DNA of 47,974 nt from Lachnospiraceae bacterium (lineage in GTDB: Bacteria > Bacillota > Clostridia > Lachnospirales > Lachnospiraceae). Positions 7,771 to 46,866 of the stretch are shown in pieces. A model generated the notes under the pieces. That model was not told the DNA's origin. It was given only the letters and a program-made list of their open reading frames with translations, and did not search any database. The stretch is taken from positions 112,717 through 160,690 of the forward strand of contig JAFRSU010000038.1 of NCBI GenBank assembly GCA_017427415.1, read 5' to 3'. Position 1 is the first letter of the stretch. Each line of letters opens with the position of its first letter. The position numbers were made by a program, and so were the translations under genes.

Positions 7771-8259
7771 TCAGTATCCGAATGTGCCCGCCAAGGATTC
7801 GTCATCCTCAATCCAGTCTCTTACGTGGATCTTGCGGTATTTGTCTTCTGTATCACGGATAAATACCTTATCTATACCTGAGTTAATGATCAGACGCTTA
7901 CACATGGAGCAGCTGTTGGAATTGGCTACGTATTCGCCGGTTTTAACATCCTTGCCGCACAGGAACATGGATGCTCCTATCATATCCTGACGTGATGCAC
8001 TTATTATGGCATTTGCCTCGGCATGTACGCTTCTGCAGAGCTCATAACGCTCACCTCTGGGGATATTGAGCTCTTCACGGATGCAGCGTCCTAAATCCGA
8101 ACAGTTCTGCCTGCCTCTCGGAGCTCCCACATAACCGGTAGATATTACTTCGTCATTCTTAACTATTACGGCACCGTATGCTTTTCTTAAGCATGTTCCG
8201 CGCTTTGCCACTACTTCTGCCAAGTCAAGGTAATAATTGATCTTGTCGCGTCTTTCCAT
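7771..8259 (-). CDS. Cytidine/deoxycytidylate (dCMP) deaminase family protein
   Basis: 162 residues of the zinc-dependent CMP/dCMP deaminase fold. The zinc and catalytic motifs are complete: HAE at 79-81 and SCSMC with C117 and C120. The TGYVGAPRGRQNC segment and the insert with a further Cys/His match ComEB-type dCMP deaminases, which turn dCMP into dUMP for dTMP synthesis. In this position it is a single-gene unit between a repeat block and a REP-like element, with AAGGAGG in front of the start. The substrate is family-level inference. Confidence 0.9.
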   Translation of the reverse strand: MERRDKINYYLDLAEVVAKRGTCLRKAYGAVIVKNDEVISTGYVGAPRGRQNCSDLGRCIREELNIPRGERYELCRSVHAEANAIISASRQDMIGASMFLCGKDVKTGEYVANSNSCSMCKRLIINSGIDKVFIRDTEDKYRKIHVRDWIEDDESLAGTFGY

Positions 8260-8279
8260 GTATGTCCTCCTTATATTTT

Positions 8280-8396
8280 ACACCTCATCAGTCAGCTAAA
8301 GCTGACAGCTTCCCCTTGAGGGGAAGCCTTGTGGCTAACTGTTTTAGCCTTCCCCTCAGAGGGGAAGGTGCCTCCTTTAGGAGGCGGATGAGGTGT
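8280..8396. repeat. REP-like palindromic repeat, copy 2 (most complete)
   Basis: It is bounded by ACACCTCATC on the left and GATGAGGTGT on the right (perfect inverted ends). Internal hairpins are CAGCT/AGCTG, CTTCCCCTTGAGGGGAAG and CCTTCCCCTCAGAGGGGAAGG. It lies between the start of the deaminase and the stop of the sugar kinase, ending 2 bp before the kinase TGA, so it may also act as a transcript-end hairpin. Confidence 0.8.
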
Positions 8397-8398
8397 TA

Positions 8399-10096
8399 TC
8401 AGATACTTTCAACAGCAGCTTTCTCTGCGGCTAAGCCCTTAAGATATACTTCCTCAAATTTATCAAAGCCTGCTACAAGCTTTGCATCAGGTGCGATGGT
8501 CTCGCCCTTCTGTCCTGCAAATACCTTGATACCCAGGTAATCCTGCAGTGACTCGTTTGCAGCCTTATTTACCATATATGCTGCAAGGATAGCCATACCC
8601 CATGCGCCGCCTTCTCCTGCTGTCTCCATAACGGATACTGAAGAGTTAAGTGCTGCAGCAAGTATGCCCTGGGCTACGCCCTTTGTCTTAAAGATGCCTC
8701 CATGGCCGTAAAGTGTATCCACCTTTACGCCTTCATCCTTTATCATGACATCACAGCCTGTCTTAAGTGTTGCAAATGCTGAGTAAATATGTGTCCTCAT
8801 GAAGTTGGCCAGATTAAACTTTGCATCGGGTGTACGTACGAACATGGGACGTCCCGCATCAAGATCTGTCACACCTTCACCTGAAAGGTAATTGTAAGAG
8901 ATAAGTCCGCCGCAGTCGGGGTCTCCCTCTAAAGCCTTGTTAAAGAGCGTTACGTAAAGCTTGCCCTTATCAACTGTGCCGCCGTTTGCCTCGATAGCTT
9001 CTGCAAGCAGGTTAACCCATGCGTTGATATCCGATGTACAGTTGTTGCAATGTACCATACCTACCGCACTGCCGTCAGGTGTGGTAACTATATCGATAAT
9101 AGGATATACCTTTGAGAGATCTTTTTCAAGTACTACCATCGCGAAAATGGATGTGCCGGCTGAAACGTTGCCTGTACGCTGTGCTACAGAATTGGTAGCT
9201 ACCATACCTGTACCTGCATCACCCTCGGGAGGACAGAGCGGTATGCCTGCTTCAAGCTCTCCGCTTTCATCAAGAAGCTTAGCGCCTTCAGCGGTAAGAG
9301 TACCTGCTGCCTCACCGGCCGTAAGTACCTGAGGTAATATGTCACGCAGCTTCCAGGATAACCCTTTAGCTGCCGCAAGTGCGTCAAACTTATCAACCAT
9401 GCCCTGGTTGTAGTCACCTTTGGCGGTATCGATAGGGAACATACCCGATGCTTCTCCCACACCTGCCACACGCTTGCCGGTAAGCATATAGTGGATATAT
9501 ACAGCCAATGTGCTTAAGAAATCGATCTTTCCTACATGCTCCTCGCCGTTAAGTATTGCCTGGTAAAGATGTGCTATACTCCAGCGCTGGGGAATATTGA
9601 AATTGAATTCTTTGGTAAGCTTTTCTGCTGCTTCGCCTGTAATGGTATTTCTCCAGGTCCTGAAGGGTACCATGAGGTTTCCTTCTTTATCAAATACCAT
9701 ATATCCGTGCATCATGGCCGAGAAGCCGATGCTTGCAAACCTCTTTATACCTACGCCGTATTTTTCCTTTACGTCCTTTTTAAGGTTAGCATAACAGTCC
9801 TTAAGTCCTGTCCAGATGTCATCGAGCGAGTATGTCCATACACCGTTCTCGAATCTGTTTTCCCACTCATGACCGCCCTCTGCTATGGGGTTGTGGTTTT
9901 CGTCTATTAATACTGCCTTGATCCTGGTTGAACCAAACTCAATACCCAATACGCTTTTTCCGCTTTCGATACATTTTGCTGCATCCATTTTAAGTTCCTC
10001 CTTAACCTCTTTTAATGAATATGTTACCGGATCCATCATATGTTCTTTCATAGCTTTTTTATAACATTTAAGATCATATTCATCTTCTCTGTTCAT
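8399..10096 (-). CDS. FGGY-family carbohydrate kinase, substrate unknown
   Basis: 565 residues. The start at 10096 is chosen for its GAGGA ribosome site; a longer frame to 10144 lacks one. Domain order is that of FGGY sugar kinases: an N-terminal ATPase lobe with [17 protein letters not shown] (about 50-66), the middle [12 protein letters not shown] region, and a C-terminal lobe with [13 protein letters not shown] and [14 protein letters not shown]. It is longer than xylulokinase (about 500) because of a 45-residue N-terminal helix-rich extension. The reaction is ATP-dependent phosphorylation of a free sugar such as xylulose, ribulose or fuculose; I cannot tell which. An esterase gene lies upstream on the same strand and a 15-bp palindrome sits between them. 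Confidence 0.88.
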
Positions 10097-39643: not shown

Positions 39644-40195
39644 CTACCTGATGCTGATGATACCGGGATATGCATTCTGTAAATCCTTAAAAATAGCGTA
39701 TATGGATTCATCATCCCTGTAAAGCATCTTTTCATCACCGTTAGAATTGATCGAAAGTATCATCGGAAGAGTCTCATCCTTTTTTATAACTTCTTCTATC
39801 ATCCTCTTACACTCTGCCCAGGTTTCTGCAGTATTGCTCGGAGTGAGGTTCAAAGTTACCGGCTCTTCATTGTTTATCATAACATATACTGTTCTCAGCC
39901 TTCTGTTTTCAAGGCTGTAGGACGCATATACGGTCACTGCGTTAAAATAATCACTCAAGGAATCATAGGCTGCCATCTGCTCAGCATATGTGTCAACCAA
40001 AGCTTCCATTTCATCAAGCTTTTTATCGGCTTCGCTCACATACACTTCTGCCTCTGCGAACTTCTGGTCTGCCTCCATATTGAAGGTATCCTGTCCTGCC
40101 AGAACCACTATCAGGACTATGAAGATAACATCAAGAAGAGGAGTCAGATCTATGATCAGTCTGCCTATGGATTTAGGTTTTTTATTCTTACCCAT
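39644..40195 (-). CDS. ExbD/TolR-like proton-channel subunit
   Basis: 183 residues. The single membrane helix (about 13-33) reads IIDLTPLLDVIFIVLIVVLA: the Asp in LTPLLDVIFI is the conserved proton-carrying residue of ExbD, TolR and MotB. A helical stretch (about 38-75) and a C-terminal alpha/beta ectodomain (LPMILSINSNGDEKMLYRDDESIYAIFKDL) follow. It begins 10 bp after the ExbB-like gene, the standard pair. It would form the rotor inside the pentameric ExbB-like stator. Strong family call; what the motor drives is not known. Confidence 0.88.
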   Translation of the reverse strand: MGKNKKPKSIGRLIIDLTPLLDVIFIVLIVVLAGQDTFNMEADQKFAEAEVYVSEADKKLDEMEALVDTYAEQMAAYDSLSDYFNAVTVYASYSLENRRLRTVYVMINNEEPVTLNLTPSNTAETWAECKRMIEEVIKKDETLPMILSINSNGDEKMLYRDDESIYAIFKDLQNAYPGIISIR

Positions 40196-40205
40196 ATGTT
40201 ACACC

Positions 40206-40742
40206 TCACTGGTCCTGTTTGTTGTCAAGTGCGAACTTATCCTTTGCCATATTGTAATTCTGTTCGAATGTATCGAAGTAAAGCTCCATCTTGTTTACAG
40301 TCTTGCTGACCAATATGGCATCGGCAAACTTAAGCACGATGGCTGCTATCAGTCCCCAGAACGTGGTAGACATAGAAAGTGTAAGTGCTTCCTTCATCTT
40401 GTTGATATCATCCAGATGCTGTATAAGTCCCGCTACGGTACCTAAGATACCAAGTAAAGGGAAGATTGGCACAAACTGCTCAAAGGTGGAATATATAAGC
40501 TGGATCTTATTATACTCCTCCTTGTATTCCAGTATCTCCTCCCAGGTATATGCATCGGGAGTTTTCTGAATACCTCCCGGAGTAAACTCCGTGGAGCGTT
40601 TCTTTTTATGTTTTTCGTCTATAGTATTCTGAAGTTTGGAAATATTCATCACAACATATGCAAACCCCGCAATGGTAATGATGGCCAGTACTAAGATCAA
40701 TCCGTTAATCGAATTACCGATAATGATAGCTAATGAGTCCAT
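40206..40742 (-). CDS. MotA/TolQ/ExbB-like proton-channel subunit
   Basis: 178 residues, three membrane helices (about 8-30, 88-108, 121-142). The family core is VPIFPLLGILGTVAGLIQ followed by ALTLSMSTTFWGLIAAIVLKFADAIL, which carries the conserved Thr and small residues lining the ion path. With the ExbD-like protein it should form a proton-driven stator. In Gram-negatives such pairs drive TonB, Tol or gliding; this Gram-positive has no TonB or outer membrane, so the client must differ. Genes for three anchored or secreted proteins follow in the same operon. Confidence 0.9.
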   Translation of the reverse strand: MDSLAIIIGNSINGLILVLAIITIAGFAYVVMNISKLQNTIDEKHKKKRSTEFTPGGIQKTPDAYTWEEILEYKEEYNKIQLIYSTFEQFVPIFPLLGILGTVAGLIQHLDDINKMKEALTLSMSTTFWGLIAAIVLKFADAILVSKTVNKMELYFDTFEQNYNMAKDKFALDNKQDQ

Positions 40743-40776
40743 ATATTCTCCTTCTCCTATCTGTTTTTATACTATG

Positions 40777-40818
40777 TGTCATTCATCCTTAAGATTCTTC
40801 GCTTTGCTCAGAATGACA
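40777..40818. repeat. Short dispersed inverted repeat (TGTCATTC...GAATGACA)
   Basis: TGTCATTC at 40777-40784 pairs with GAATGACA at 40811-40818; the body contains AAGATTCTTCGC and GCTCAGAATGACA. It lies between the AIM24 and ExbB-like genes. A related unit (GTCATCCTGAGCGTCAGCGTAGGAT) forms the 3' end of vanZ at 37083-37110. This family is common between genes in many Firmicutes. Confidence 0.65.
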
Positions 40819-40833
40819 TTGTTAGTTTCTCCG

Positions 40834-41625
40834 TTATTCTCTAGGTGCATTAATTCCGATATTTTCCCTTACAGGTGCGATGAGTACTCTCCCTGTTCCG
40901 GAATAAACGTTTACAAATCCTTCTTTGGCAGCCAGCGATCCGACCAAAGTCGCAGTGGTCTTTTCTACAGTAAACTTAAGCGTGGATGACCACGCGATAG
41001 CCATATCTCCGTCTATCTTTATCACATCATCATTTAACTCCGCTACTATAAGCTCATCCGCAGGTACGGGGCTTTCCAGAGCCACAAGCCCGCTGCCTTT
41101 AAGCACGGAGTTCCATATACCTTCGTTGCCCAGTATCAACGATGAAACATTTTTCCTCGAAACAACACTTACATCCACTGTATCCTCGCAGGCCAGGAAC
41201 ATGCCGTCCTCTATGACCACATCCCCTTCCCATTCGTCAAGGTCTGCTAAGAGGATATGATAAAACGTAGGCTCAAGTACTAAGGTACCTACTCCGGTAT
41301 AACGCGGCTTGACGATGGTCTCACTTGTAACCAGGCTTTTTACAGTCTTTTTAAAGAAGTCTCCCACTCCCTTAACATCCGTGGCAGCCTCGATATCACC
41401 TATCATCATCTGCATCTCGCCGGCCTGTATGATCACACCGGTCTTTTCATCTATGTCACAGACAAGCTGACGCTTCCGGACATTCATCTCGGATGCAAAA
41501 TAAGCCTCCTGTGCCCTGCTCGGTGAAACGGAAATATCACGCAGATACTCGATAACGCTGAACCTTCCGCGCCTTTCGATAACCTTCTTTGAATCCGTCT
41601 CAGACAACAAATTTGTTTTTACCAT
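40834..41625 (-). CDS. AIM24 family protein
   Basis: 263 residues, beta-rich, no signal peptide. The fold pattern of AIM24/TIGR00266 proteins is visible: MQMMIGDIEAATDV, YTGVGTLVLEPTFYHILLADLDEWEGDVVIEDGMFLAC and SLILGNEGIWNSVLKGSGLVALESP with the GxGxV turn. It forms trimeric beta-barrels in known structures; biochemical function is unknown. It precedes the ExbB-like gene by 91 bp with a dispersed repeat between, so it may or may not be in that operon. The C-terminus ends VRENIGINAPRE. Confidence 0.85.
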   Translation of the reverse strand: MVKTNLLSETDSKKVIERRGRFSVIEYLRDISVSPSRAQEAYFASEMNVRKRQLVCDIDEKTGVIIQAGEMQMMIGDIEAATDVKGVGDFFKKTVKSLVTSETIVKPRYTGVGTLVLEPTFYHILLADLDEWEGDVVIEDGMFLACEDTVDVSVVSRKNVSSLILGNEGIWNSVLKGSGLVALESPVPADELIVAELNDDVIKIDGDMAIAWSSTLKFTVEKTTATLVGSLAAKEGFVNVYSGTGRVLIAPVRENIGINAPRE

Positions 41626-41830: not shown

Positions 41831-43858
41831 ATGTCAAAAGAAAGGAAACAGGAAAAGAAACACCGTAACGCAAGACCGAAGTTGAGATATATCCTCTCAT
41901 TTCTGGCTTTTATGTTCTGCTTTTTATTCACCCTGAAGATACATGATATCAAGGCTGCTTCATATGCCAAAGTCATCAATGTCAAATTAAAGGACGGTCA
42001 GGATGCCACAGCAGAGATCCAGAAAGCACTTGACGAGGCAGCAAAGGCCGGCACCAAGAAGAAGCAGGCTATGGTAAAAGTACCTGCAGGCACCTACCTT
42101 TTAAGCAAGTCCTTAGTGATAGGTTCAAATACATACTTAAAGCTTGATAAAAAAACATACATGAAGAAGAATCCTAATTCCAAGGATCCCGTGGCACACA
42201 TGCTTCATGCTGTACGCGGAAATAAAGGCGGGTATTCGGACAACACGCGTATAACCGTAGACGGCGGTGTATGGGATACCGAGTTTAGGCAGTACAACGA
42301 AAAAACAAGTTCTTCCATTTTCATGTTTGCCCACACCAATAATCTGAAGATACTGAATGTAACTCTCCGCAACAGCTTCGGCACTCACCTTATAGAGCTC
42401 GGCGGCGTAAAGAAGGTTACCATCAAGAACTGTACTTTATACGGATACAAAGCTCCAAGCTCCGATGTAGAAAAGGAAGCCATCCAGTTTGATAACTGCC
42501 ACAACGATACTATCCTCTCATATGGTGAGCCTTTTGATGATTCACCCTGTACCGATGTAACAGTCACAAACTGCGAGATCTACAATTATCCGAGAGCTGT
42601 CGGAAGCCATACCATGGTTGAGGGTATCTACCACAAGAACATAAAGATAGTAAACAACAACTTCCATGATATAGATGATGCCGCTGTATACGGATACAAC
42701 TACGTTAACCTCACCGTAAAAGGCAACAAGATGGAAAACGTAGGTGCCGGCATACAGGTTAAGACCGATTCAGTAGCAAAGAACACCATAGTATCACGTA
42801 ATAAAGGTGTCAAGGCCATGAAGGTATCGGGTAATAATTTTAAGTTAAAGATAACGGATAACGTAATCACACTTAAGAAAACACTGGACCAGTCAGGTGC
42901 GGACTCAGGATCATCCATCGGTATATTCATATACGGTTCGGAGAAGTACCCGATGAAAAATGTGACCATAAGCAGCAATAAGATCACCTGTCATTCATCG
43001 GGAATCTACTTAAGATATGTAGATGATGCAGCCATCAGCGATAATACGGTTACACGTTTTTCGGGAGCTGCTGCTGCAGACAGTACAAAATTTGCCGAGG
43101 ATGCCATAAAACTGCTCGCCTCTAGCGGTGCCAAGATCACAGGCAACACTGTATCCTGTGCTTCCGCTCCTTTTGAGAACGGTATAGCAATGCGTGACGG
43201 AAGCAAGAACGCAGTAGTATCATCCAACACCATCACAGGTGCAGGAAAAGGCGGTATAGCTCTTTACAGCTCAAGCTCTATAAAGTCAGGTGACAGCAAT
43301 ACCATAAGCGATACCGGTGCAAACGGTATCGTAGTCGGCGGTGACTGCAGTGTCAGCTTAACCGGCGGCTCCATCACAAATGCAGGCGGCAAGGGTATCA
43401 ATGTCATGGAAAGCGGCAACCTTACCGTCAGCGGCATGACCATCTCGGGAAGTACCGGAAGAGGCATAGATATAGCAGGCAAGAGCAAGGTAAGTATCTC
43501 AGGCTGTACCATAATGAGCGGAAGTGCAAACGGGATATTTGTAGACGGCGACACCGATACAACCATAACAGGATGTACGATAAAGAATAACAAAGGAAAT
43601 GCCATACAGCTGAAAGTAGGCAAGGTTAAGATCACAAATAACGTGTTTAAAGACAACTGCTTAAGCGAAGCTGACGGAAAGGCTGTAGCAGTCTTCGGCG
43701 GTATCTCCGGTGAGATAAGCAACAACACCTTCTCTAACCCTCTTACCAAAAGCGAACTTTGGGTATCGGCTGATGCATCCTTAAGTCCGTATGTGAGCAC
43801 GGTGAAGACTGCGAAAGCGTACGGAACAACCGATGCAGCCGGAAACTATTATAATTAA
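41831..43858 (+). CDS. Secreted right-handed parallel beta-helix protein
   Basis: 675 residues with AAGGGAG before the ATG. Residues 1-43 are a basic stretch and a hydrophobic signal segment (YILSFLAFMFCFLFTL) ending IKAAS, a good cleavage site. The rest is a pectate-lyase-like beta-helix: repeated units of about 22-25 residues with patterns such as ITGNTVSCASAP, VSSNTITGAGKGGIAL and ISGCTIMSGSANGIFVDG, each with stacked Asn/Gly and Ile/Val positions. Family members act on polysaccharides or bind them. A catalytic site cannot be picked out by eye. No anchor motif is present, so it is released or held by charge. Confidence 0.88.
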   Translation: MSKERKQEKKHRNARPKLRYILSFLAFMFCFLFTLKIHDIKAASYAKVINVKLKDGQDATAEIQKALDEAAKAGTKKKQAMVKVPAGTYLLSKSLVIGSNTYLKLDKKTYMKKNPNSKDPVAHMLHAVRGNKGGYSDNTRITVDGGVWDTEFRQYNEKTSSSIFMFAHTNNLKILNVTLRNSFGTHLIELGGVKKVTIKNCTLYGYKAPSSDVEKEAIQFDNCHNDTILSYGEPFDDSPCTDVTVTNCEIYNYPRAVGSHTMVEGIYHKNIKIVNNNFHDIDDAAVYGYNYVNLTVKGNKMENVGAGIQVKTDSVAKNTIVSRNKGVKAMKVSGNNFKLKITDNVITLKKTLDQSGADSGSSIGIFIYGSEKYPMKNVTISSNKITCHSSGIYLRYVDDAAISDNTVTRFSGAAAADSTKFAEDAIKLLASSGAKITGNTVSCASAPFENGIAMRDGSKNAVVSSNTITGAGKGGIALYSSSSIKSGDSNTISDTGANGIVVGGDCSVSLTGGSITNAGGKGINVMESGNLTVSGMTISGSTGRGIDIAGKSKVSISGCTIMSGSANGIFVDGDTDTTITGCTIKNNKGNAIQLKVGKVKITNNVFKDNCLSEADGKAVAVFGGISGEISNNTFSNPLTKSELWVSADASLSPYVSTVKTAKAYGTTDAAGNYYN

Positions 43859-44941: not shown

Positions 44942-45961
44942 TTATGATTTTTTCGCCCCGCCTGCACAGAAGGGTGATTCATAAATATTACCGTGTACAA
45001 AATAATTATATGATCTGCAGCCGCCTCCGCAATATTCGCCGAGCTCGCATTCTGCACATTTGCCTGTGAGCTTATCCTTGGAAAACTTACGGTTATATGC
45101 AAAATTATCCGGGTTCTCCCAGATATCTTTAAGACTCATCTCCCTTAGGTTTCCTTCATTGAATGCGGGGTCATACATTGATTCACAGCCCCTGACATTG
45201 CCTACGCTGTCTATACCTATGGAGGTTATGCCTGCAGAACAGCCCCTAAAGTATGCTTCCCCGCTTAAGTTACCGCGTATGGAGCCTTCCGCTTCGGTAA
45301 AGTACCCGATATTGTCTGCCACACCCATAGCGAAAGGTGCTTCGTACATATGTGAGGTTACGAAGTTTATAACCTCCAGCATGTCAAACCGGTAATCTAT
45401 CCCGTTATTTGCAGCGTTCCCCATGGGTGAACAAGCCTGGAGCTGCCATGCATATATGCTGTATTTGTCAAGAATCCCGTATAGCTGCTCAAGATACTTC
45501 ACATTCTCACTGTTGAGCGTACTTATGACTGATACAGGTATGCCGGCAGACAGCAATGTTTCCATGGCATTCACTGCCCTGTCGAAGCTTCCCTGCTGCC
45601 TGTATTTATCATGCACTTCCTTCGGTCCGTCGAGCGATACCGATATCGATTCTATATTTGCTTCCTTCAGGTCTTCTATAAGCTCATCCCGGAACAGGAA
45701 GCCGTTAGTGATGATATTGACTTTTATCCCGTGTCCGGTAAGCCTTGCAACTATCTGCTTCCAGTCAGGTCTCATAAATACTTCGCCGCCTATCATGGAT
45801 ACACGTCTGCATCCAAGCTCGTTTAGCTGGTCCGCCACATCAAGGCATTCTTCGGTCGTAAGCTCATTTTCACGTTTCCTGCCGCCGCCCGAACCGCAGT
45901 ATTTACACGAAAAACAACATGCAAGCGTGATCTCCCAGACACACATTTTCAGGTGATACAT
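44942..45961 (-). CDS. Radical SAM/SPASM peptide maturase (putative RiPP-modifying enzyme)
   Basis: 339 residues. The radical SAM cluster motif is C15-xxx-C19-xx-C22 (ACCFSCKYCGSGGG), followed by GGEVFMRPDW (S-adenosylmethionine motif) and ISVSLDGPKEVHD. The C-terminal SPASM domain has the expected cysteines: FRGCSAG, NVRGCESM, GKCAECELGEYCGGGC and a last SPFCAGG, for two auxiliary iron-sulfur clusters. SPASM enzymes of this size make thioether or carbon-carbon cross-links in peptides. The start overlaps the last 13 bp of the VYAGP-repeat peptide gene in another frame with GGGGG 7 bp upstream, a close coupling of substrate and enzyme. Enzyme class is certain; the reaction is inferred. Confidence 0.92.
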   Translation of the reverse strand: MYHLKMCVWEITLACCFSCKYCGSGGGRKRENELTTEECLDVADQLNELGCRRVSMIGGEVFMRPDWKQIVARLTGHGIKVNIITNGFLFRDELIEDLKEANIESISVSLDGPKEVHDKYRQQGSFDRAVNAMETLLSAGIPVSVISTLNSENVKYLEQLYGILDKYSIYAWQLQACSPMGNAANNGIDYRFDMLEVINFVTSHMYEAPFAMGVADNIGYFTEAEGSIRGNLSGEAYFRGCSAGITSIGIDSVGNVRGCESMYDPAFNEGNLREMSLKDIWENPDNFAYNRKFSKDKLTGKCAECELGEYCGGGCRSYNYFVHGNIYESPFCAGGAKKS

Positions 45962-46326
45962 TTATTATCCCCCATTTGTTCAGGACCGGCATATACCGCA
46001 CGCATCTCGGGAAGATCCCTGACAGGATCCGGACCTTCTTGTGAGTTTTGGTGATCATCCGGCAAGTTATCAGGCTCATCGTATACGTCATCAGGCTCAT
46101 CGATCTCATCGGGCGTGGGAGGTCCTGCATATACATCCTCCATCTCCGAATCGGCTCTCTGTCTCATCCTGCCCATCATACCGGGCCCGGCATATACACA
46201 CATCATACGCTTTTTTCGGCTCAGTCCCTTAGGAGGCCCGGCATACACTATTTTTGTTTTTTCTCGATCTTCATTTACACGTTCCGGATAAGTCTTTTTA
46301 AAAAGATTTTTAAAGAAGTTTTTCAT
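45949..46326 (-). CDS. Multicore VYAGP-repeat peptide, putative RiPP precursor
   Basis: 125 residues with AAAGGAG 6 bp before the ATG. It starts with an amphipathic basic segment (MKNFFKNLFKKTYPER), a likely recognition leader or membrane-binding helix. Four exact VYAGP motifs follow at 27-31, 44-48, 65-69 and 111-115, each in different surroundings (IVYAGPPKG, CVYAGPGMMG, DVYAGPPTP, AVYAGPEQMG), plus a decayed VYDEP at 81-85. Charge shifts from basic to strongly acidic across the protein. Only two Cys are present, so thioether chemistry is unlikely to explain all repeats; the Tyr (or Val/Pro) of each motif is the candidate target. It is followed, with a 13-bp overlap, by a radical SAM/SPASM gene. 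I know no named family for it. Confidence 0.8.
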   Translation of the reverse strand: MKNFFKNLFKKTYPERVNEDREKTKIVYAGPPKGLSRKKRMMCVYAGPGMMGRMRQRADSEMEDVYAGPPTPDEIDEPDDVYDEPDNLPDDHQNSQEGPDPVRDLPEMRAVYAGPEQMGDNKCIT

Positions 46327-46371: not shown

Positions 46372-46866
46372 CTATTTTTTCTTGGTTGCCTTTGCTGTTT
46401 TGGCAGGTGCCTTTTCCTTTACAGGCTTTACTATCTTAGCAGGTGTTTCTTTAGCAGGAGCTTCTTTCTTTACCGTCTTGGCCGGTTTTTTAGGTGCGGG
46501 TACGGATACCTTTGTCTTTTTGGCGGCCTTATTCTTCAACGGTCTTCCAACAAAGACAAGATCAAAATCCCCCAGTCTTGATACATTGCGGAGAGCTTCT
46601 ATATTCTCGGCAGCCACTTCATCAAGTATCTTCTTCTTGCCTTCAGCTATAGCGATGATCTCCTCGCCGGTGCATCTGATACGGATATCATGATCAAAGT
46701 ACTCGTAAGGCTGTACATCTACCTTTCCGTCCCTGACCTCGATATAAAATGCTCCCTCGCCTTCACCGTAAATATCTACCTGCACTGCAAGATGTCCGCT
46801 TACTGCCGATGCATCCACCTTTTCCAATGCTTTTTTCACTTTTTCCACTATTTTCTCGTAAGTCAT
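46372..46866 (-). CDS. SCP2-like domain protein with histone-like Lys/Ala/Pro tail
   Basis: 164 residues, AAAGGAGG before the ATG. Residues 1-110 form an SCP2 (sterol carrier/lipid-binding) type fold: VEKVKKALEKVDAS, HLAVQVDIYGEGEGAFYIEVRDGKVDVQPYEYFDHDIRIRCTGEEI. The last 50 are Lys/Ala/Pro repeats (PAPKKPAKTVKKEAPAKETPAK) like histone H1 or DNA-binding tails. Its stop is 45 bp before the VYAGP-repeat peptide start, so it is probably co-transcribed. SCP2 domains bind hydrophobic ligands; with this tail it may bind nucleic acid or another acidic partner, possibly the acidic peptide next door. Function unknown. Confidence 0.82.
   Translation of the reverse strand: MTYEKIVEKVKKALEKVDASAVSGHLAVQVDIYGEGEGAFYIEVRDGKVDVQPYEYFDHDIRIRCTGEEIIAIAEGKKKILDEVAAENIEALRNVSRLGDFDLVFVGRPLKNKAAKKTKVSVPAPKKPAKTVKKEAPAKETPAKIVKPVKEKAPAKTAKATKKK

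Follow-up and report, generated by a model that had tools for sequence, protein, structure and literature searches.

A radical SAM/SPASM enzyme of Clostridia and its predicted substrate, a neighboring protein with repeated Tyr- and Pro-fixed sites

A stretch of 47,974 nt from Lachnospiraceae bacterium (assembly GCA_017427415.1, contig JAFRSU010000038.1, positions 112,717 to 160,690), hereafter the window, holds a radical SAM/SPASM enzyme gene and, just upstream, a gene for a protein with an array of short repeated motifs. The enzyme probably modifies each V-Y-x-[G/A/P]-P site of the array protein, a prediction drawn from comparison of related sequences. A bond between Tyr and the Pro three residues later (i+3) is our tentative prediction for the modification itself. 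No described class matching the array system was found, in keeping with the sequence-only reading of this DNA, which recognized no class with this core, and no Pfam or NCBIfam model matches the array protein. The features of the locus are as follows.

44942 to 45961, minus strand: radical SAM/SPASM enzyme gene, 339 aa, with the CX3CX2C motif and SPASM cysteines (Pfam).
45949 to 45961, minus strand: overlap of the array and enzyme genes, 13 nt.
45949 to 46326, minus strand: array gene, likely substrate, four VYAGP and one VYDEP (open reading frame and relatives).
45982 to 45996, minus strand: VYAGP copy 4, residues 111-115.
46072 to 46086, minus strand: VYDEP variant copy with Tyr and Pro retained, residues 81-85.
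46120 to 46134, minus strand: VYAGP copy 3, residues 65-69.
46183 to 46197, minus strand: VYAGP copy 2, residues 44-48, in the context MMCVYAGPGMM.
46234 to 46248, minus strand: VYAGP copy 1, residues 27-31.
46279 to 46290, minus strand: YPER, representing the second conserved element of the family (YPxx).
46291 to 46326, minus strand: basic amphipathic start, MKNFFKNLFKKT (by eye).

The array protein (MKNFFKNLFKKTYPERV...) is a 125-aa product read from the minus strand; the plus-strand frame over the same interval is interrupted by a stop. The 125-residue product with four exact VYAGP copies and one VYDEP, as described in the sequence-only reading, was confirmed on the minus strand. That reading regarded VYDEP as a decayed copy; the variant is indeed present, but its Tyr and Pro are kept. 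Neither chance nor DNA duplication accounts for the repeats. More than one VYAGP appeared in 0 of 2000 within-protein shuffles of the window protein, and the 86 exact copies in 29 partner proteins compare with a shuffle mean of 0.005 and a maximum of 1. A DNA tandem repeat was likewise rejected as the source, the four window copies being four different 15-base words and the 86 copies comprising 70. Genome-wide, the motif DNA TAYGCNGGNCC has 22 occurrences, 4 of them inside the array gene, and the reversed control has 24. A protein search of the source genome (E <= 10) found no second array gene. In the AlphaFold model of the window array protein (pLDDT 60.7, pTM 0.14, from a 10-row alignment), the chain is predicted to be largely unfolded.

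Within the motif, variation is lowest at Tyr and Pro. Beside the 86 exact copies in 29 partner proteins, words with one mismatch at positions 1 to 5 number 15, 0, 15, 5 and 0, and beside the 607 exact copies in 136 proteins (the window protein and 135 relatives) they number 76, 1, 108, 23 and 1. At least two motif copies are present in 136 of 136 proteins and at least three in 134, although all 136 come from VYAGP-containing queries, which biases the counts and makes the sample non-neutral. A wider tally gives 124 copies in the 29 partner proteins (86 VYAGP, 13 AYAGP, 5 VYMGP, 5 VYNGP, 4 VYAAP, 4 VYGGP and others); it presumes Tyr and Pro, whereas the one-mismatch count is unbiased. V, A, I, L and T all occur at position 1. 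The residue after Tyr is Ala in 107 of the 124 copies and Gly in 4, and the residue two past Tyr is Gly in 118. Flanking preferences extend outwards, with Met at -3 in 66 of 124 copies and Met or Phe at +3 in 60. VYGGP copies occur, several of them in enzyme-clade loci, and the smallest spacing between motifs is 10 residues. Given that five of six loci in the order's second family (65-67% identity) use VYAAP, LYAAP, VYAPP or IYAPP (the sixth has VYAGP, VYGGP and LYAAP), Gly is dispensable. Pro is not absolute either, because one copy in locus L118 is VYAPA and one in another relative is VYAGS. Of the earlier proposal of VYAGP as the core, the conservation of the motif stands, but its exact spelling does not, with relatives using VYAAP, VYAPP, VYGGP and VYMGP.

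As peptide motifs, the sites have evolved under purifying selection. In a comparison of the window with the two loci nearest to it, the motif codons show 20 synonymous and 0 amino-acid changes in 45 codon pairs, against 60 synonymous and 77 amino-acid changes in 233 spacer codon pairs (Fisher 5e-7). This bears out the earlier claim that the motif is the conserved part, and free drift of the motif among relatives, which the same reading had named as counting against it, was not found in this comparison.

Searching with the array protein returned 40 proteins at E <= 10 (384 candidates), and an array profile search returned 510 at E <= 0.001, the best 120 of which were examined. Named sources belong to Lachnospiraceae or elsewhere in Clostridia, and most are metagenome-assembled genomes of rumen and gut origin; by the taxonomic labels of the matches the gene pair is present in four families of Clostridia. 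Enzyme loci were collected from a genome-contig scan (20) and from genomes of relatives (12 of 99, one distant), the family (10 of 299), the order (17 of 295 at a looser cut, 7 in the close clade) and the class (6 of 391). After removal of duplicate records by comparison of array and enzyme sequences, 42 distinct loci remained (55-100% identity), in which no two enzymes are at least 95% identical except those of L099 and L101 (95.5%).

An array gene lies beside the enzyme gene in 39 of these 42 loci. Pairing was scored as a same-strand open reading frame with at least two [VAILT]-Y-x-[GAP]-P within 300 nt of the enzyme; the pattern count was 40 of 42, and L082 was dropped because the gene in question encodes a kinase-FHA protein with one match within the kinase domain. 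In the window the two genes overlap by 13 nt, from which we infer translational coupling, and the adjacent radical SAM/SPASM gene noted earlier is borne out (PF04055 and PF13186). The distance between array and enzyme genes is -37 to +129 nt in 33 of 35 gene pairs measured, L082 included. Array genes hold 2-10 motif copies. Arrangements vary: the array of L019 lies downstream of its enzyme, two array genes stand in tandem in L006, and in L133 and L135 the enzyme is flanked by an array gene on each side. At L020, with an incomplete enzyme gene, the gap was not measurable; in L020/L032 the array is intact and the enzyme match starts only at residue 112-127, the gene being broken or misassembled.

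Three loci are exceptions. In the genome of L009, the array is on a separate contig beside a MoxR-like ATPase gene (by eye); this array of a genome with a lone enzyme, with the ATPase gene adjoining, is seen at L092 (6899-8945, minus strand). In L031/L082, a kinase-FHA gene (8108-9385, minus strand, in L082) replaces the array and encodes VYAAP at residue 302, between both domains. The gene on the other side of the L082 enzyme encodes a protein whose start resembles a zinc ribbon (by eye). For L049/L081, no array was found within 12 kb or by profile in its genome, and its enzyme is the first branch of the enzyme clade in the drawn tree.

Across genomes, enzyme and array occur together. In 24 genomes of the genus, both are present in the identical 10 (G000, G001, G004, G005, G006, G008, G015, G016, G018 and G020; Fisher 5e-7), and the 14 enzyme-negative genomes have no array. 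The 299 family genomes were drawn evenly, so that nearly each represents a separate genus; the enzyme is present in 10, and array profile A2 matches 4 genomes, all within those 10 (Fisher 6e-7). Array homologs in genomes lacking the radical SAM gene, which the earlier reading had named as evidence against itself, were found in neither the 14 genus genomes nor the 289 enzyme-negative family genomes, where the profile used recovers 4 of 10 positives. Profile A2, built without the zinc ribbon, was adopted because its predecessor A1 also matched plain zinc ribbons, in at least 263 of the 299 genomes. The six strongest A1 genomes are all enzyme-positive. Among 30 A1 loci examined, 2-7 motifs were counted in each of the six at E below 1e-9 and 0 or 1 in the remaining 24, which include one locus of the enzyme-positive genome G150. 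Because both profiles miss divergent arrays (A2 recovers 4 and A1 6 of the 10 enzyme-positive family genomes, and some arrays that they missed were read beside the enzyme), negative results in other genomes carry less certainty.

Neighbor clustering of 21 loci recovered the enzyme from 20 and the array from 10; no third gene was common to more than 4 of them, the one that reached this number being a glycoside hydrolase family 3 gene. No conserved leader protease, exporter or kinase gene was found beside the pair in these 21 loci. The method is weak for short or fast-changing neighbors, such as a small RRE protein, since BLAST joined only ten of the divergent array reading frames. The glycoside hydrolase family 3 genes (L005 3128-5680, L010 2016-3794, L020 1453-3738 and L021 1-1494) probably reflect merely a common gene family in these bacteria. 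In the window, the gene upstream of the array (46372-46866, minus strand) has a weak, below-cut-off match to an SCP2-like domain and a Lys/Ala/Pro-rich tail; among 35 loci compared, it is present only in L002. Further along are a minus-strand row at 39644-41625 with ExbD-like (39644-40195), ExbB/MotA-like (40206-40742) and AIM24-like (40834-41625) genes, and a plus-strand gene at 41831-43858 for a 675-aa protein with a signal-like start and parallel beta-helix-type repeats (all by eye).

The enzyme itself scores above cut-off for both PF04055 (109.1 bits) and PF13186 (35.7 bits). Its Cys residues 15, 19, 22, 241, 259, 302, 305, 311, 315 and 332 are conserved in a 28-row alignment, and in the outgroup too. 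With its radical SAM domain starting as early as residue 10, the enzyme has no fused N-terminal RRE. The closest NCBIfam models are the peptide maturases TIGR04103 (nif11-class maturase 3, 230.3 bits) and TIGR03913 (225.9 bits), followed by one at 155.3; the TIGR04103 cut-off of 725 is far above the score, and the TIGR03913 score is likewise well below its cut-off. Four array-less outgroup enzymes that were scanned score alike with these two models, and identity as a peptide maturase is therefore supported at most weakly. In the tree, 35 enzyme-clade members form one group (split support 0.76) apart from 10 relatives (L104-L112 and L033; 35-41% identity, open frames of 479-525 aa). No array was found at any of these 10 loci in the roughly 1.5 kb examined on each side; some of the outgroup enzymes have a TPR-like tail (by eye). 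One viral-contig scan returned a single 34% relative, with no motif adjoining. The enzyme structure model (pLDDT 86.5) has PqqE, SkfB and SuiB as its leading PDB fold matches, PqqE being the top one, with a partial sequence match. PqqE acts on a Tyr-containing peptide, in which it joins Glu and Tyr. PqqE is described as depending on an accessory protein (PMC5682303).

Array proteins are modular. They range from about 80 to 360 aa, and a CxxC...CxxC zinc ribbon is present in 26 of 37 partner proteins and absent from 11; the window protein lacks it. Pfam Zn_Ribbon_1 was over cut-off in 4 of 9 neighbors scanned (L007, L014, L099 and L100). The YPxx element, mostly single, was found by pattern in 35 of 37 partners, the other two being a protein with a trimmed start, whose longer frame has YPxx, and a variant. 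The order of motif copies, YPxx, basic stretch and zinc ribbon is shuffled among relatives (by eye). In the window's genus, the basic stretch and YPER come first in most array proteins; L014 and L047 place YPENY after most sites, and L099, L100 and L118 run from YP through zinc ribbon and sites to a basic C-terminus. Basic stretches like the start of the window protein are internal or C-terminal in some relatives (by eye). A layout of N-terminal leader and C-terminal core was not found among the relatives. The initial description of the gene as a multicore RiPP precursor is hence half right: a small gene beside a dedicated modifying enzyme, a general RiPP feature, recurs in the 39 loci, but the leader/core layout and a widely conserved third gene were not found. 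The idea of a small precursor is not supported, given the size of the relatives, their zinc ribbons and their reordered modules.

The preferred reading would work as follows. The SPASM enzyme would bind each copy of the short motif and act a single time on the Tyr there. Since copies are found at any place in the array protein, with spacings down to 10 residues, we infer that the enzyme reads a stretch of about 10 residues (Met or otherwise hydrophobic at -3, then Tyr and Pro, and Met or Phe at +3) without a leader or RRE. At each site, a Tyr(i)-Pro(i+3) cross-link might form, with a mass change of -2 Da. This link is favored over other chemistries because a cross-link fixes both end residues and frees those between. 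Cyclophanes spanning three residues are disfavored because Gly, the residue two after Tyr in most copies, has no beta carbon. Alternatively, the constancy of Pro may serve binding, recognition or a turn, with no part in a bond. The absence of a conserved protease or exporter gene, together with the zinc ribbon in most partners, suggests that the modified protein remains in or at the cell. As a whole, the picture of a resident disordered scaffold, often with a zinc ribbon, in which one enzyme closes each V-Y-x-x-P into a Tyr-Pro ring without leader, RRE, protease or exporter, would be a new kind of radical SAM protein modification, but is doubtful. The main chemical rival, which we consider unlikely, is a splicease-like reaction in which tyramine would be excised at each X-Y site, leaving a keto-amide in the backbone and a mass change of -135 Da. 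TIGR04103 is the best NCBIfam model of the enzyme, and its InterPro entry is, we presume, IPR026482. PlpX, a SPASM radical SAM enzyme assigned to IPR026482, excises tyramine at Xaa-Tyr-Gly (PMC11002830). A leader is unnecessary there, short tags in other proteins being spliced, and a modified FtsZ tag holds GYGLP, with Pro three after Tyr as in the array motif (PMC10533398). The tolerance of V, A, I, L and T at position 1 and the VYGGP copies also fit such a reaction. Conversely, Tyr is followed by Ala, not Gly, in most array copies, and PlpX is described as working with the RRE protein PlpY (PMC11002830), whereas no widely conserved third gene was seen in the 21 loci. The Pro spacing is a thin parallel, because LYGLP tags were unmodified at the FtsZ places shown (PMC10533398). 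Spliceotides and arrays both have a SPASM enzyme and a Tyr site preceded by a variable residue, and recognition is short and leader-free in spliceotides, as predicted for arrays (PMC10533398, PMC11002830), but spliceotides, as far as these sources describe them, have an Xaa-Tyr-Gly core, an RRE partner and Nif11 or nitrile-hydratase-like leaders. Membership in that class was rejected on the rarity of Gly after Tyr (4 of 124 copies) and on an enzyme score under the TIGR04103 cut-off, matched by array-less outgroup enzymes; the link of PlpX to TIGR04103 is our assumption.

As a further rival, VYAxP might be a docking motif that recruits the enzyme, the changed residue lying elsewhere, in YPxx or the zinc ribbon. 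Short repeated motifs frequently serve as docking sites, and YPxx is nearly universal among the partners. We nevertheless regard docking as distinctly improbable, given that each array gene encodes 2-10 copies of a motif with an invariant, chemically reactive Tyr, whereas YPxx mostly occurs once and the zinc ribbon is missing from 11 of 37 partners. Tyr could instead be a phosphorylation or kinase-type site (YxxP), with the radical enzyme acting on a small molecule or another protein. In YxxP signaling motifs, Y and P are fixed and the two residues between are free, and one locus pairs the enzyme with the kinase-FHA protein; however, no conserved kinase adjoins the pair in 21 loci and enzyme presence tracks arrays, which makes this very unlikely. 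Epimerization of Val or Tyr at each site, in the manner of EpeE, is most unlikely: EpeE structures are within the PDB fold matches of the enzyme and EpeE-type epimerases work leader-free (PMC8326336), but these matches rank 34 and lower, below PqqE, SkfB and SuiB, and motif position 1 varies.

Other described systems offer partial precedents. TvgA/TvgB provides the multi-copy case, in which a SPASM enzyme beside a short-repeat peptide makes one change at many copies of the repeat, yielding a poly-cyclopropylglycine RiPP (PMC9062424). The TVG repeat, however, is TVGG and the changed residue Val, and its authors expected an oxidase and hydrolysis/export genes (PMC9062424), none of which is conserved at array loci; TVG membership was rejected on the Y-x-x-P core. 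Mycofactocin shares a Val-Tyr pair as the target of a SPASM enzyme, with MftC joining Val and Tyr at the C-terminus of MftA, whose C-terminal Tyr is decarboxylated (PMC5682303). The array pair is internal, and TIGR03962 gives 143.7 bits against a cut-off of 265, so this assignment was also rejected. The Aro-Xaa-Xaa-Asn peptides (cluster 27, PMC9062424) resemble arrays in having two fixed residues three apart, repeated and lying beside a SPASM-family enzyme, but the second residue is Asn rather than Pro, there are two copies in the C-terminal region, and their cyclophanes are a prediction only in that source. Sactipeptides and ranthipeptides were excluded, in line with the earlier view that the motif is not Cys-based, since a Cys donor is not present at each site (Cys at -1 in only 22 of 124 copies). 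No description of the motif or the pair, and no report of a modified peptide, was found in the literature searched, which was mostly open-access. The YAGP in a foot-and-mouth virus epitope is regarded as coincidence.

The array and enzyme genes form a clean two-gene system, in which a single radical SAM enzyme is predicted to act repeatedly, on a motif some 10 residues long. Its Tyr- and Pro-fixed pattern makes the chemistry distinguishable by mass, at -2, -135 or 0 Da per site. If the proposal is true, this would be a multi-site protein modification so far undescribed and a portable, leader-free tag of about 10 residues, and radical SAM protein chemistry would reach beyond secreted RiPPs.
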